Assembly: GCF_002727185.1 (NCBI RefSeq)
Contig: NZ_NIZW01000018.1
Location: forward strand, 62,001 to 126,000
From: Rhodopirellula bahusiensis
GTDB lineage: Bacteria > Planctomycetota > Planctomycetia > Pirellulales > Pirellulaceae
Length of the DNA: 64,000 bases
Direction of reading: 5' to 3'
In this document: in pieces, positions 14,551 to 20,821 of the stretch
How positions within the stretch are numbered: the first letter of the stretch is position 1
Layout: every line of letters begins with the position of its first letter
Program-made: the position numbers and the translations under genes
The notes under the pieces: model-generated
Database searches by the model: none
Told to the model about the DNA's origin: nothing
What the model saw: the letters and a program-made list of their open reading frames with translations, nothing else

Positions 14551-16329
14551 TCAGACGGGCGATGGTTCTTCAAACATCCGAACATCTTGGACCGGATAGG
14601 AAAAGCGACCATAGGTCATGTCGTAGATCTCCCACTTTTGATGCCCTTCGTCGTGCAAGACGGACTTGAGCACCCGTTCCGTTAGCAGAACGACATCACG
14701 CCACTCGTTGCTATCCAGTGTTACCAAACCTGAACTGCGTTTCTCAGCCAGATCGGCGGCGTTCTCCAAGTGCTTCGCGAGCAACTTCGGTGCTTTAACA
14801 GATTCATACATGGACAAGGTTGCCTGTTCGTTGGCACCACCGATTTGAAGGTCGGGATACGAGTCGTCGACACTCACCAAACAGTGCCCGTCCTCCAGCA
14901 CGCTGATCATCCGCAGACGAACTTGCCCGTCAAGCTCATCCGTCATGCCTAGAACCAGATTCTGACACCCGACCTGGATCGTAGCTTGGCATGCCGCATC
15001 GCCGCGACCAATTTCCACCAACAACGGTTCTTCGAAATCAGCTTTTTGCCAAAGCAGGTTGTGCTCCATCGCCTCGGGTGATGCTTGTGCGTTGGCAGGC
15101 ACGCTCAATCGAGGATCCAAATACTTGCGAGAATAGCTGGCGTTCTTATTCAGCGTTTCTTGCAACGCGTCTTGTCGAACTCCAGTCGTTGTGTACTGAT
15201 CCGCGTCGACATCCGTGCCGCTGGACTTCTTCGCTCGCTTTTGCTTTTTCGAAGGCTTTGCATTCTTCGCTCGACCTTTCTTTGGCAGGATTAAATCGTC
15301 CAGTGATCCTGGCGACAACACCATGCTGCGTTTGGTCTTTATGCTCCCGCGAATCCCCAACCAAGTGGCCATTCCGGCACAAGCCGCGATGAAACCGGCG
15401 GCCTGCATCGTCCACATCGATTGAGCTTGCCCCAATCCACCGAGAACAAATGCCAACCCGTATGCGGCGGCCAAACTGAATCCACCGACGAAGAACGCCA
15501 GCATCCATGTGACTCGGTTGCCACGACCGGACCGCAATGGAATCCCGAACACACCGACAATCGCGGCGACGGGACAGAATAGGATCCAAAGCCCCCAACC
15601 AGCCGAACTGCAAAGCAACCATCCGATGGTCATCGAAAAGGCGGACGCACCGATCCAAATGCTGGCGTTTGAAACGGATTCGGTTTGAGAGATGGGGTGC
15701 AAAGAGTACTGATCCATTTCAGCTGACTTCACAAACGGCTCTGGTAGTTCGACACCCAGGTAGTCACCTGATTTGGCAATCCACTTCGATGTTGGATCTT
15801 CCGTGACGAAAGCTGTCAACGTTCCGGTTGTTTTGACTTCTTCTAAAGCCAAGGCAGCTATGTCGCGACCGGGCGAGAGTTTGAGCGGTTGTGGCATTGA
15901 AGCGCCGACAAAGTCCCGCGGAATGACTTCGCCGCGCACCATCTGGTCAATTAGCTTCTTGGACCTTGGGTGCTTCAGTGTTTTCGAGATGGTCGACTTG
16001 GCCATCGCAACTTTGTCACCCGACATCCAAGCTCGCATCCCCGTGCCGACAGGCAACGCTTGAGCCGCATTGGGATCGGGTGCCAACATGGCGAAGTCCA
16101 TCTCTTCGGATGGCTCTGCAATTGTCGCGTCAGTCAGCCGAACGACCGACGACTCGCCAATTCCGTTTTGAACCAGCTCCGCACAAGTCATTTCGACGGG
16201 AGTTTGTTCCGACGACAATGCCCGATGAAGCTTGGGAACGGCGACAAGGGTTCCGCAAAAGAGACCGGCCGAAAACAAAACGCTGCCGACTGCTGCACGT
16301 CGAGTGTTACGTCGTTTTGAGGAGGGCAT
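14551..16329 (-). CDS. Polytopic membrane protein, function unknown
   Basis: The 592-residue product starts with a signal-like helix (residues 13-32), has a soluble domain to about 225, then a cluster of about four membrane helices (AFSMTIGWLLCSSAGWGLWI, LWILFCPVAAIVGVFGI, WMLAFFVGGFSLAAAYGLAF, MQAAGFIAACAGMATWLG), and a Lys-rich linker (KKGRAKNAKPSKKQKRAKK) before a cytoplasmic C-terminal domain. No family is recognised. The middle of the N-terminal domain mentions no catalytic motif. It ends 40 bases from the convergent EEP gene and starts opposite the symporter gene. Confidence 0.75.
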   Translation of the reverse strand: MPSSKRRNTRRAAVGSVLFSAGLFCGTLVAVPKLHRALSSEQTPVEMTCAELVQNGIGESSVVRLTDATIAEPSEEMDFAMLAPDPNAAQALPVGTGMRAWMSGDKVAMAKSTISKTLKHPRSKKLIDQMVRGEVIPRDFVGASMPQPLKLSPGRDIAALALEEVKTTGTLTAFVTEDPTSKWIAKSGDYLGVELPEPFVKSAEMDQYSLHPISQTESVSNASIWIGASAFSMTIGWLLCSSAGWGLWILFCPVAAIVGVFGIPLRSGRGNRVTWMLAFFVGGFSLAAAYGLAFVLGGLGQAQSMWTMQAAGFIAACAGMATWLGIRGSIKTKRSMVLSPGSLDDLILPKKGRAKNAKPSKKQKRAKKSSGTDVDADQYTTTGVRQDALQETLNKNASYSRKYLDPRLSVPANAQASPEAMEHNLLWQKADFEEPLLVEIGRGDAACQATIQVGCQNLVLGMTDELDGQVRLRMISVLEDGHCLVSVDDSYPDLQIGGANEQATLSMYESVKAPKLLAKHLENAADLAEKRSSGLVTLDSNEWRDVVLLTERVLKSVLHDEGHQKWEIYDMTYGRFSYPVQDVRMFEEPSPV

Positions 16330-16522: not shown

Positions 16523-17794
16523 ATGACGGAATCACCCAAGCACAATCAGTCACTGACGTATTGGATTGCGGGTGCGATTGTGGCGGCGATCGCAGTTGCA
16601 CTGACTGCTCCGAATATCGCGGTGCACTTCGAAATCGGTGGCGAACTGTTCCTTCGGGCGCTCAAGATGATTGTGGTGCCCTTGGTGTTCACTTCCGTGT
16701 TGTGTGGAGTTTTGGGGTTGGGCGATGTCCGGCAACTAGGCCGTCCGGGCGCGACCGCGGTGGGGTACTACCTGTGCACGACCGTCTTGGCCGTGGTCAT
16801 TGGATTGGTCGTGGTCAATGTCATCCGCCCGGGAGTCGGAACGGTCGATCCTGCCGTTCTCGAAAAGTTTGCTGAGAGCGCCGAACTTCCAAACGGTCAA
16901 ACAGAGGCACCCGGCATGGGCGTTGTGCTCGAGAATCTTGCGTTGATGCTGATCACGGACAACTTGTTCGCTGCCGCAGCCGACACTCAGTTGTTGCCGA
17001 TCATCGTGTTCACAATCGCAATCGGGGCGCTGATGACAACCATGATGGATCGCGTTCGGTCGATCGCCACTTTGGTCACCGAAGCCAATGATTTGCTGCT
17101 GCGGTTTGTCATGGCTTTGATGAAGCTCGCACCGATCGGGATTTTCTGCCTGGTGGCTGCAAGATTCGGAAAAGCTCAAGCCGACGGTCGCTTCTTTGAA
17201 GAAATCAGCCAGATCGGTTGGTACTTCGCCGCGGTGGTGATCGGCTTGGCCATCCACGGCTTCGTTATCCTTCCGACAATTTACTATCTGGTTACCAAGA
17301 AAAATCCCTATCACTACATGGCGGCGATGAGTCAAGCGTTGCTGACAGCGTTCTCAACCGCCAGCTCATCGGCGACGTTGCCGGTCACACTGGAGTGCGC
17401 TGAATCCGCTGGCGTTTCAAAGCGTTCCACTGAATTCGTGATCCCATTGGGAGCGACGATCAACATGGATGGCACCGCGTTGTACGAAGCTGCCGCGGCC
17501 ATTTTTATCGCCCAAGCCATCGGCTTCGACCTGACACTTTCAGACCAATTGATCGTGGCGGTCACCGCGACGCTGGCCGCAATCGGAGCCGCGGGAATAC
17601 CGGAGGCGGGGCTGGTCACGATGCTGATTGTCCTGGGAGCTGTCGGATTGCCTTTGGAATACCTTGGCCTGATCCTCGCGGTGGATTGGTTGCTCGATCG
17701 ATTCCGAACCGCGGTCAACGTTTTGGGCGACAGCATCGGTGCGGCGGTCGTGGGCACGACGATCCCAGACCCCGAACCATCGAGAACTTCATAG
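16523..17794 (+). CDS. Dicarboxylate/amino acid:cation symporter (DAACS family)
   Basis: It takes up dicarboxylates or acidic amino acids with Na+ or H+ across the inner membrane. The 423-residue protein has about eight membrane helices and the family's two re-entrant signatures: the Ser-rich AFSTASSSATLPVTLECAE and the substrate/cation motif GATINMDGTALYE. Helix 1 begins at residue 11. Length equals GltP/DctA-type carriers. Substrate is undetermined. It starts about 190 bases from the divergent membrane-protein gene and stands on its own before the NfeD genes. Confidence 0.93.
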   Translation: MTESPKHNQSLTYWIAGAIVAAIAVALTAPNIAVHFEIGGELFLRALKMIVVPLVFTSVLCGVLGLGDVRQLGRPGATAVGYYLCTTVLAVVIGLVVVNVIRPGVGTVDPAVLEKFAESAELPNGQTEAPGMGVVLENLALMLITDNLFAAAADTQLLPIIVFTIAIGALMTTMMDRVRSIATLVTEANDLLLRFVMALMKLAPIGIFCLVAARFGKAQADGRFFEEISQIGWYFAAVVIGLAIHGFVILPTIYYLVTKKNPYHYMAAMSQALLTAFSTASSSATLPVTLECAESAGVSKRSTEFVIPLGATINMDGTALYEAAAAIFIAQAIGFDLTLSDQLIVAVTATLAAIGAAGIPEAGLVTMLIVLGAVGLPLEYLGLILAVDWLLDRFRTAVNVLGDSIGAAVVGTTIPDPEPSRTS

Positions 17795-17915
17795 AAAGCG
17801 ATCCGCCTTTGCTCGCGAGAGCACTGGAACATCGGATCTTCATCCTGGCCTCATAAACGCTGGCGAATTGGATCCGTCATGTTCTTTTGCCTTCCATCCG
17901 CCGTATAATCGTTGC

Positions 17916-20180
17916 ATGAGCGGTCAACGGTTTGTCTTGGTTGGTTTCCGGCACAGTGTGGTCCCCGGCTGGGGGCGATCACTTTGGTGCATGCTAGTCA
18001 TATTGCTTGGCCTGTTGCCCATTCATCTTGGACTGGCACAGACGGATACGTCGCCCAAAACGGGAGTGCTGATCGACGTCCCGTCTCCTCTGAACAGTCG
18101 CGACGTTGATCGGATCTTGGCTCGCTTGTCTCAGATCGCTGTCGCATCCAAACGCGGCGATGCATCTGACAGAGGCCGAACCACTGTGGTCCTGCGACTC
18201 GGAGAAACCGGCCGAGGTGGACAAGCGGATTCGGCCGCGCCAAGCAGCGAACAATCGACGCCTTCAGAGGCCAGGAATTCCGCTGGTGGAGCCACTGCAT
18301 TCGAGGACGCACTGAAGATCGCGCGAGCGGTTTCCAGTTCTGATCTCAAACGCGTCCGGGTGGTCGCCTGGGTCGATGGAGCCGTGTCCGGGCACGATGT
18401 GCTGCTACCGCTCGCTTCGGAAACGTTGCTGATTTCATCGTCTGGATCGATCGGTGACGCCGGTCGGTTTGAGCCACAGCTCGACGACACGATCGGAGTT
18501 TTGTATCAATCCATCGCCCGCCGCAGGGCTTTGATACCGCTGGAGTTGGTCGGTGGTTTGGTCGACTCCAGTCTCGAAGTTGCGAAGGTCAATTTGATCG
18601 ACGGTGAGTCAAGCTTTTTGTCCGGGAAATCGCTGCTGGACGCTCGCTCGGCTGGGCGGGTCGCTTCGGAAAACACCCTGGCCAATTCCGGCGAACCACT
18701 CGTCTTGGACGCCAATCAGCTCAGGCAAATTCGGGCCGCCGCGGCGATCGTCGATTCAGAAGAGACCGTTTCGGACTGGCTGGAACTGAGTGCACTGCAA
18801 AGCGACGATTCGCGATCAGTGGACGAAGCGGTCGGGCGATTGGTCCGAGTCACCGGCAATATCACCGGATCTCGCGTCCGTCGGTGGCAGAGCAATTTGG
18901 CCGCGACGATCGATTCGCCAGACGTGAACACGTGGTTGATTGCCATCGATTCACCAGGCGGCAATTTGAATCGAAGTGCATCGCTCGCTGCGACCCTGGC
19001 GGATCCCGGCATCGCCATTCAGGCGGTGGGAGGCTGCGTGACCGGCGAAGCTCGCGGGGATGCGGCGTTGATCGCGCTGGCCTGCCAACCACTAATCATG
19101 TTGCCGGATTCGACAATCGGCGGCAGTGGCGCCGACGCAATGTCACCCGCCGACGTGCAGCGTCAGTCAGAGCTGATCGACATGGTCGCGGACTCGACCG
19201 GCCGAAGCGTCGCGCTCATTCGCGGATTGCTGGATCCTTCCCTTTCAGTGCACCGATACGTTCACCGCCGCTCGGGACGAGTCCGCTACGCAACCTCGGA
19301 TCAAATCCGCCTGGACTCAAATGAAAACGAAACCAGCGATTGGCAGCGGATGGAAAAGATCGAACTCGCGTCGGGTCTCAACGCCTCCCAAGCCATGGAA
19401 CTCGGATTGGCCGATGGCACATCCGAATCTCTGCAAACAGCCTCCGCAGCAGTCGGCCTGAACGGCATCCCGCCAGAACTATCGGACCGCGGACTGGTTC
19501 GCTGGGTTGAACGACTCGGAGGCCAAACCGGACTCGCGATGTCGCTGTTGGTTGTCGGCTTCATGATGCTGTCGATCGAAGCAAGCGCCCCGGGACTCGG
19601 TTTTCCCGGGTTCATCGCTCTGGTTTGCTTCGCATTCTTCTTTTGGATCAAGTATCTCGCCGGGACCGCTGAGTGGGCAGAGCTCCTCGCCTTTGGACTT
19701 GGCCTGGCTTGCATCGGCATTGAGATATTTGTGCTGCCTGGCTTTGGAGTCTTCGGAGTCGGCGGCCTGATTTTGACAGCGATCGGCGTGATGCTCATGA
19801 GCCAAACGTTCGTCGTTCCACAGAACGCTTACCAGCTCGGTGAACTGACACGAGGCCTTTGGGTCACGCTTGGAGGACTAGGCGGCTGCGTTCTTGGCAT
19901 GATTTTGGTCCGGATGTATCTGCCACAAGCAGCTCTTGCGACTGGATTGTCGATGGGCGTCCCCGAAGCCAACCTGGATGAATCGGAACGCTTGGCTCAC
20001 TACGACAATCTGATGGGCCAAACCGGCGAAGCCACCACGCCGCTGCGGCCCAGCGGTAAGGCAAGGTTCGGTGAGACAATCGTTCCGGTCGTGAGCGACG
20101 CAACCGCGATCGATGCCGGTCAATCCATTCGTGTCATCCAAGTCCTCGGAAACCGAATCACCGTCGAGGCGGTGGATTGA
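17916..20180 (+). CDS. NfeD-family membrane protein with two SppA/ClpP-like protease modules
   Basis: The 754-residue product has a signal segment (residues 22-41), a first SppA/ClpP-like domain (about 50-190) holding VVAWVDGAVSGHD with a candidate nucleophile Ser158, and a second such domain (about 305-410) with AIDSPGG. In the second, the place of the usual serine block reads GEARGDAALIALA, so the nucleophile seems lost. Four or so membrane helices follow from about residue 530, then a C-terminal OB-like domain (ETIVPVVSDATAIDAGQSI). Usual long NfeD proteins are about 430-460 residues with one protease domain. They are thought to work with membrane-quality proteins such as stomatin. The next NfeD gene overlaps the stop by one base (TGATG), so they are cotranscribed. 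Confidence 0.8.
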   Translation: MSGQRFVLVGFRHSVVPGWGRSLWCMLVILLGLLPIHLGLAQTDTSPKTGVLIDVPSPLNSRDVDRILARLSQIAVASKRGDASDRGRTTVVLRLGETGRGGQADSAAPSSEQSTPSEARNSAGGATAFEDALKIARAVSSSDLKRVRVVAWVDGAVSGHDVLLPLASETLLISSSGSIGDAGRFEPQLDDTIGVLYQSIARRRALIPLELVGGLVDSSLEVAKVNLIDGESSFLSGKSLLDARSAGRVASENTLANSGEPLVLDANQLRQIRAAAAIVDSEETVSDWLELSALQSDDSRSVDEAVGRLVRVTGNITGSRVRRWQSNLAATIDSPDVNTWLIAIDSPGGNLNRSASLAATLADPGIAIQAVGGCVTGEARGDAALIALACQPLIMLPDSTIGGSGADAMSPADVQRQSELIDMVADSTGRSVALIRGLLDPSLSVHRYVHRRSGRVRYATSDQIRLDSNENETSDWQRMEKIELASGLNASQAMELGLADGTSESLQTASAAVGLNGIPPELSDRGLVRWVERLGGQTGLAMSLLVVGFMMLSIEASAPGLGFPGFIALVCFAFFFWIKYLAGTAEWAELLAFGLGLACIGIEIFVLPGFGVFGVGGLILTAIGVMLMSQTFVVPQNAYQLGELTRGLWVTLGGLGGCVLGMILVRMYLPQAALATGLSMGVPEANLDESERLAHYDNLMGQTGEATTPLRPSGKARFGETIVPVVSDATAIDAGQSIRVIQVLGNRITVEAVD

Positions 20181-20821
20181 TGCCGGTTCTCTACACGATC
20201 GGCTTGTTGGTACTCTTCCTGACTTTGGTGATTGCCGAGATCATCGTACCCAGTGGCGGCCTGCTTGGATTATTCGCGGTCGCCGCAGCGATCACCGCGG
20301 TTCTGATCGCATTCACCGTCAGCCTGAATTTCGGTCTGGCGATCGTCTTGGCCCTGCTCGTACTGACGCCGATCCTGCTCAGCATCGTCTTGAGATTCTG
20401 GCCGCAAACCGCGATCGGCAAAGAGATCTTGAACCGTCGTTCCAACGGAACAGAAAGCTCCGCTCCCGTCGCAACCACCCCCGACGGCACCCCGCTGGTC
20501 GACCTAATCGGCCGCTACGGAGTCGCCGCATCCGATTTACTACCAGCAGGCCGAGTCATCATCGACGGCCACAAAGTCGACGCAGTAAGCACCGGAATGC
20601 CAATTGACAGCGGAGATCCAATCAAAGTCGTCCGAGTCCAAGCCGGAAAACTGCAGGTTCGATCAGCAACCGCAGAAGAATCCCAAACGGACATGCCTGC
20701 CGAATCAGCAGAATCAATAGAGCTATATAACAATACTGACTCAGCCAAAACCCTCGACGAAGTCAACCTGGATGACCTAGACATCGAATCCAGCCCGGCA
20801 AGTTCAATACGCTATCCATGA
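20180..20821 (+). CDS. Short NfeD-family membrane protein
   Basis: The 213-residue product has three to four N-terminal membrane helices (residues 1-75: TIGLLVLFLTLVIAEIIVPSG, LLGLFAVAAAITAVLIAFTV, LAIVLALLVLTPILLSIVL). A soluble OB-like domain follows, with the NfeD pattern GRYGVAASDLLPAGRVIIDG and AVSTGMPIDSGDPIKVV. The last 50 residues are acidic and low in complexity. The ATG overlaps the previous stop (TGATG), so its translation is coupled to the long NfeD protein, and the pair probably form one membrane complex. Confidence 0.85.
   Translation: MPVLYTIGLLVLFLTLVIAEIIVPSGGLLGLFAVAAAITAVLIAFTVSLNFGLAIVLALLVLTPILLSIVLRFWPQTAIGKEILNRRSNGTESSAPVATTPDGTPLVDLIGRYGVAASDLLPAGRVIIDGHKVDAVSTGMPIDSGDPIKVVRVQAGKLQVRSATAEESQTDMPAESAESIELYNNTDSAKTLDEVNLDDLDIESSPASSIRYP

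Follow-up and report, generated by a model that had tools for sequence, protein, structure and literature searches.

A long NfeD protein of Rhodopirellula bahusiensis with two predicted ClpP-fold domains in tandem and no recognizable Ser–Lys dyad

The polypeptide of tetrameric Escherichia coli SppA (S49) consists of two ClpP-fold halves in tandem, the lysine of its active site coming from the N-terminal half and the serine from the C-terminal half, whilst ClpR of ClpP–ClpR complexes has the ClpP fold without the catalytic residues. Closest to the protein described here is NfeD1b (PH1510 type; YqeZ), with which it shares a ClpP-type N-terminal domain, membrane domain and C-terminal NfeD domain. 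The dyad of PH1510-N consists of Ser97 and Lys138, deletion of its L2 loop abolishes cleavage, and each PH1510-N dimer accommodates a single peptide, lying across the two-fold axis (PMC3795559). A pairing of NfeD1b with the membrane-organizing flotillin FloA is known from yqeZ–yqfA of Bacillus subtilis (PMC2636767). NfeD is likewise the FloA partner in Staphylococcus aureus, where the OB-like domain of NfeD binds FloA and the FloA–NfeD complex stabilizes unfolded protein without ATP (PMC11222466). At 26 kDa, that NfeD probably has no room for a comparable protease domain. Our search of the openly licensed literature, judged by title and abstract, returned no description of a two-domain NfeD, and a literature search for NfeD in planctomycetes found nothing.

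The window, by which we mean the whole 64,000 nt stretch of R. bahusiensis DNA analysed, lies on contig C18, in an assembly of 7.78 Mb, and contains adjoining genes for a long and a short NfeD, with the following features:

17916..20180, plus strand, long NfeD with two ClpP-fold domains, 754 aa (ORF, Pfam, AlphaFold2 model)
18051..18815, plus strand, first ClpP-fold domain, residues 46–300 (hhalign, AlphaFold2, VIA-align)
18822..19481, plus strand, second ClpP-fold domain, residues 303–522 (hhalign, VIA-align, alignment columns)
19482..19928, plus strand, membrane domain with five predicted long helices, 538–671 (Pfam, model)
20004..20168, plus strand, C-terminal NfeD partner-binding domain, residues 697–751 (Pfam PF01957, 46.3 bits, above cut-off)
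20180..20821, plus strand, short NfeD, 213 aa (ORF; Pfam PF01957 at residues 108–161)

Both reading frames between 17916 and 20821, as well as their TGATG overlap, had been called in a first-pass annotation made from the letters of the DNA, and both were borne out; the overlap is of one base, at 20180, where the A of the short NfeD ATG is also the A of the long NfeD TGA. An in-frame GTG at 17739 would extend the long NfeD to 813 aa, although the ATG at 17916 is preferred because the predicted N-terminal helix, residues 19–32, comes after it. Pfam placed NfeD_membrane (PF24961, 80.2 bits, above cut-off) at residues 541–665, and NfeD1b_N matched the second half only, where its 26.6 bits fall short of the cut-off of 40. 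Among named relatives, the nearest is a protein of Rhodopirellula europaea (87 % identity). A search with P0001 against PDB sequences gave no match at E 0.1, and one against plasmids gave a single distant match. At the locus, a promoter scan found no complete promoter, and terminator-like sites numbered 3 against 2.6 expected. A TATAAT at 17904–17909, a few bases 5′ of the long NfeD ATG, would fit a leaderless message. Elsewhere in the window, a 592 aa frame on the minus strand (14551–16329) specifies a probable membrane protein with no Pfam match.

Profile comparison and structure prediction agree that the long NfeD is, as far as such methods can place it, a protein with two complete NfeD1b/ClpP-fold domains in tandem. 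When aligned with single-domain NfeD1b by hhalign, the first half scored a probability of 99.8 (E 1.7e-28) and the second a probability of 100 (E 1.4e-47), each over 211 columns. AlphaFold2 modelled the whole protein from 80 sequences with a mean pLDDT of 86.3 and a pTM of 0.61, the latter leaving the relative position of the two domains uncertain; residues 46–300 alone, from 76 sequences, gave a pLDDT of 90.5 and a pTM of 0.87. Using VIA-align against the PDB, PH1510-N was the best match both for residues 302–525 (6m4b; Z 18.7, rmsd 3.0, 174 aligned) and for the first half alone (Z 18.4, rmsd 2.4, 173 aligned). Foldseek, when run over both halves, placed E. coli SppA at the top of its list, a match that spans the two halves with an rmsd of 19, and ClpP and crotonase-fold chains led the list for the first half alone. 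The domain duplication read from the sequence by the earlier annotation is thus supported, and comparison of the model with SppA and NfeD structures returned two protease-fold domains rather than one; the two tandem segments proved larger (∼46–300 and 303–522) than the ∼50–190 and 305–410 first assigned to them. That long NfeD proteins usually have one such domain and are shorter also holds within this genome, in which a third NfeD, of 527 aa on contig C20, has one clear NfeD1b_N domain (98.8 bits).

The residues at the positions of the catalytic dyad are Gly159 (nucleophile) and Gln188 (lysine) in the first half, by the hhalign register, and Gly381 and Asp413 in the second, by the family alignment. 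The claim that the first half alone keeps a candidate nucleophile, Ser158, did not survive this comparison, as Ser158 precedes the nucleophile position by one residue, in the same register in three first-half profile–profile alignments with active-type domains. Position 159, the nucleophile column, is Gly in 158 of 170 proteins. A shift of the register by one would seat Ser158 on the nucleophile, yet only 22 of the 170 have Ser at position 158, most of the others having Thr, Arg, Glu, Gln or Lys there. The first half furthermore lacks a DSPGG and has an 11-residue deletion before Gln188. In the second half the DSPGG is present at 345–349, as had been noted, and the loop ahead of Asp413 is nine residues shorter; the segment before the lysine is of 20 residues in 108 of the 121 second halves from the order of the window versus 28–30 in all 25 single-domain proteins, and the loop so shortened is the one whose deletion abolished cleavage in PH1510-N (PMC3795559). 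The GG of the DSPGG is kept in 117 of the 121 order proteins, which would also suit a surviving catalytic pocket. The second-half nucleophile column is Ser in 26 of these 121, none of which has Lys in the lysine column and two of which have a Lys no more than four residues away from that column. Lys occurs at the first-half lysine column in three of the 121 and at the second-half column in one. As the frequency of Lys among the order's proteins peaks at 31 % over the columns of residues 46–522, there is no conserved lysine that one half could lend the other. The reading of the second half as degenerate is therefore upheld for the window protein, where alignment found no dyad in that half, whereas the suggestion of a split site like that of SppA is not. 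Taken together, a dead active site in both halves is well supported by these alignments and, because the dyad is absent from both, we file the long NfeD as a non-peptidase homologue and not as an NfeD1b protease.

This layout was sought in other planctomycetes and found more widely than chance would give: the full two-domain protein is present in 38 of 40 related genomes, the exceptions being G013, with a single-domain protein only, and G020, with no match. In a sample of the class, 295 of 297 genomes had some match, mostly full-length among the matches listed; exceptions in f17 were G362 and G449, with the membrane and NfeD parts only, and G539, with a weak match only. Outside the class (a phylum sample of 292 genomes) we found mainly single-domain proteins, G090 and G066 being two-domain exceptions. 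For these counts, rows identical over their last 400–500 residues were removed, the truncated L172 was left out of both alignment A3 and the two-domain set, alignment A4 was A3 minus four rows (L132, L134, L137 and L176), and removal of the truncated copies L247 and L271 brought the single-domain set to 25. The second-half Ser and Lys are found together in none of the 121 proteins of the window's order, nor in any of the 38 from the 40 nearest genomes. In f18, f19 and f95–f98, which we take to be other orders of Planctomycetia, the second-half dyad is present in 21/22 (f18), 0/5 (f19), 0/14 (f95), 0/2 (f96), 1/1 (f97) and 0/3 (f98), and it is present in both two-domain phylum outgroups. Given this retention in f18 and elsewhere against its absence from the order, it would be the second half, whose active site looks ancestral, and not the first, that kept its site longest. 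The half-degenerate state envisaged by the first-pass annotation thus does exist, in f18 rather than in the window protein and with the halves reversed, the first half being without a nucleophile and the second having Ser and Lys.

Trees were built from 40 of 60 diverse order rows, 44 others and 21 single-domain rows. On the tree built from the second half together with the membrane and NfeD domains, all 40 proteins sampled from the order form one group, and the dyad state changes at least four times (quick LG+G4 search, dyad columns masked). The single-domain paralogue and f18 cluster together on this tree with a support of 99, a grouping that is less firm (support 87) without the second half. 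f18 may either have retained both domains or have arisen when a first half joined the other copy. The phylum proteins L193 and L194 sit on long branches in their first halves, which they could have acquired separately.

Pairing with the short NfeD, as proposed in the first-pass annotation, is supported. Gene order was counted at the 61 named order loci with ≥ 2.5 kb downstream, shorter ones being left out: the short NfeD and FloA both follow the long NfeD in 31, the short NfeD only in 23, FloA only in one and neither in six. The short NfeD therefore lies downstream on the same strand in 54 of 61 loci, and FloA downstream in 32. The spacing from long to short NfeD is −3 to 4 bases in 34 of the 67 named loci that have a short NfeD. 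FloA was identified by Pfam at one locus (484 bits), and the order long NfeD, short NfeD, FloA also occurs in all eight single-domain loci looked at in the phylum outgroup. In the window genome itself, the FloA genes L054 and L055 are on contig C10 of G000 (130525–131487 and 195497–196387), 65 kb apart, and, unlike in related genera, neither copy adjoins an NfeD gene; the FloA partnership of the window's long NfeD is therefore carried over from its relatives. In one f19 locus FloA is directly downstream, and nine f18 loci (L195–L201, L211 and L212) had no same-strand FloA or short NfeD in the stretch examined. In seven neighbourhoods (L065, 4835–5545, and relatives) a conserved gene of ∼230 residues with no Pfam match comes after FloA, and adjoining it is a putative 3-hydroxyisobutyrate-dehydrogenase-like frame, named from its sequence.

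The 527 aa single-domain paralogue aligns with PH1510-N and has a dyad of Ser138 and Lys178, which is invariant in 13/13 single-domain proteins and in 25/25 of the larger set. Of the 40 related genomes, 22 gave a strong single-domain match, in 21 cases alongside the two-domain protein; such a match was absent from 17 of the 38 two-domain genomes. The two-domain protein is therefore kept where no dyad-bearing NfeD1b was found, and this count led us to reject a strict division of labour between the two proteins. Among 17 single-domain loci, including one duplicate, the short flanks (at most ∼1.5 kb) contained neither FloA nor a short NfeD.

These observations bear on four other explanations of the long NfeD. 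That it is a regulatory partner of the active paralogue, much as ClpR is for ClpP, would suit the intact dyad of the latter and the 21 genomes in which the two occur together; this is nonetheless unlikely, in view of the 17 two-domain genomes without a strong single-domain match, and of a paralogue gene that is unlinked to the long NfeD, neither FloA nor a short NfeD being found in the short flanks of the 17 single-domain loci. The protein also differs from ClpR in being membrane-bound and tandem, and its gene cluster contains no catalytic partner. Since several kinds of enzyme are built on the ClpP/crotonase fold, the first half could have turned to other chemistry, for example around His160, which is present in 114 of the 121 order proteins and in 18 of 24 proteins that represent other families in the class; two enoyl-CoA hydratase/isomerase chains are, moreover, among the top Foldseek matches of this half. 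We regard this as improbable, as His160 is found in only one of 23 proteins of the f18/f19 set, no second conserved residue of catalytic type was identified, and VIA-align ranks PH1510-N first for the first half.

The tandem halves and the leading place of SppA in the Foldseek list are what would favour an SppA-like protease in which the halves give different catalytic residues, with Ser158 as the nucleophile. That list aside, each half scores its highest Z with PH1510-N, neither residue of the split dyad is present (positions being transferred via the NfeD1b alignment and not from the SppA sequence), and the long NfeD has NfeD membrane and NfeD domains in addition. With Ser158 variable and out of register, and with lysine at either lysine column as rare as given above, such an enzyme is very improbable, the split dyad and catalysis by Ser158 being already contradicted by the family alignment. 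The architecture described in the first-pass annotation is thus real and its catalytic assignment wrong, and a half-active protease of the SppA type is not supported here. Loss of both dyads might be expected of a decaying gene, which is hardly credible for a frame that is open over its full length in 38 of 40 related genomes and has low dN/dS; conservation already contradicts decay. Compared with five near relatives, the window gene gave a dN/dS of 0.062–0.118 (0.042–0.107 for the first-half core and 0.039–0.112 for the second half), ratios that are rough because whole-gene dS exceeds 1 in all five comparisons. From these values, the gene appears to bear the signature of purifying selection.

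We consider it reasonably probable that the long NfeD is an NfeD1b-type partner of FloA in which a tandem pseudoprotease, with both sites lost, forms the non-cutting head of a FloA–NfeD complex. As for the SPFH-family neighbour of NfeD1b, FloA lies beside the long NfeD in many relatives and not in the window genome; the differences from NfeD1b are the two protease-fold domains, the missing Ser–Lys dyad and the shortened loop. The layout is therefore best seen as a planctomycete form of the NfeD1b–FloA pair with an extra ClpP-fold domain in front and the site lost; compared with FloA–NfeD of S. aureus, two non-catalytic ClpP-fold domains are added (PMC11222466). As five predicted membrane helices follow the N-terminal hydrophobic helix, the model would put the double domain on the outer side of the cytoplasmic membrane and the NfeD domain in the cytoplasm. 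The two halves may be arranged face to face, as the subunits of the PH1510-N homodimer are, but within a single chain, and by analogy the fused pair could form a PH1510-N-like groove that binds segments of membrane or exported proteins without cutting them, whilst the C-terminal domains of the long and short NfeD would face the cytoplasm and bind FloA. From the single peptide held by the PH1510-N dimer and the stabilization of unfolded protein by S. aureus FloA–NfeD, we infer a holding or scaffolding role for the long NfeD, and the whole complex would act as such a device. More tentatively, it is possible that in the class of the window the fusion of a second ClpP-fold domain turned NfeD–FloA into a non-cutting device, the site being lost several times in the two-domain protein and kept in every single-domain protein examined.

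These findings bear on what the protease domain of long NfeD does for flotillin-like proteins. An entire order keeps the fold twice, seemingly under purifying selection and often beside FloA, with no dyad, and the fold would therefore be useful apart from cutting. Ready comparisons exist in f18, which has the same layout with a second-half dyad, and in the dyad-bearing single-domain paralogue type. If the favoured reading is true, the fused pair would be a dedicated protein-holding groove outside the membrane, and planctomycetes would constitute a natural test that NfeD–FloA function needs no proteolysis.
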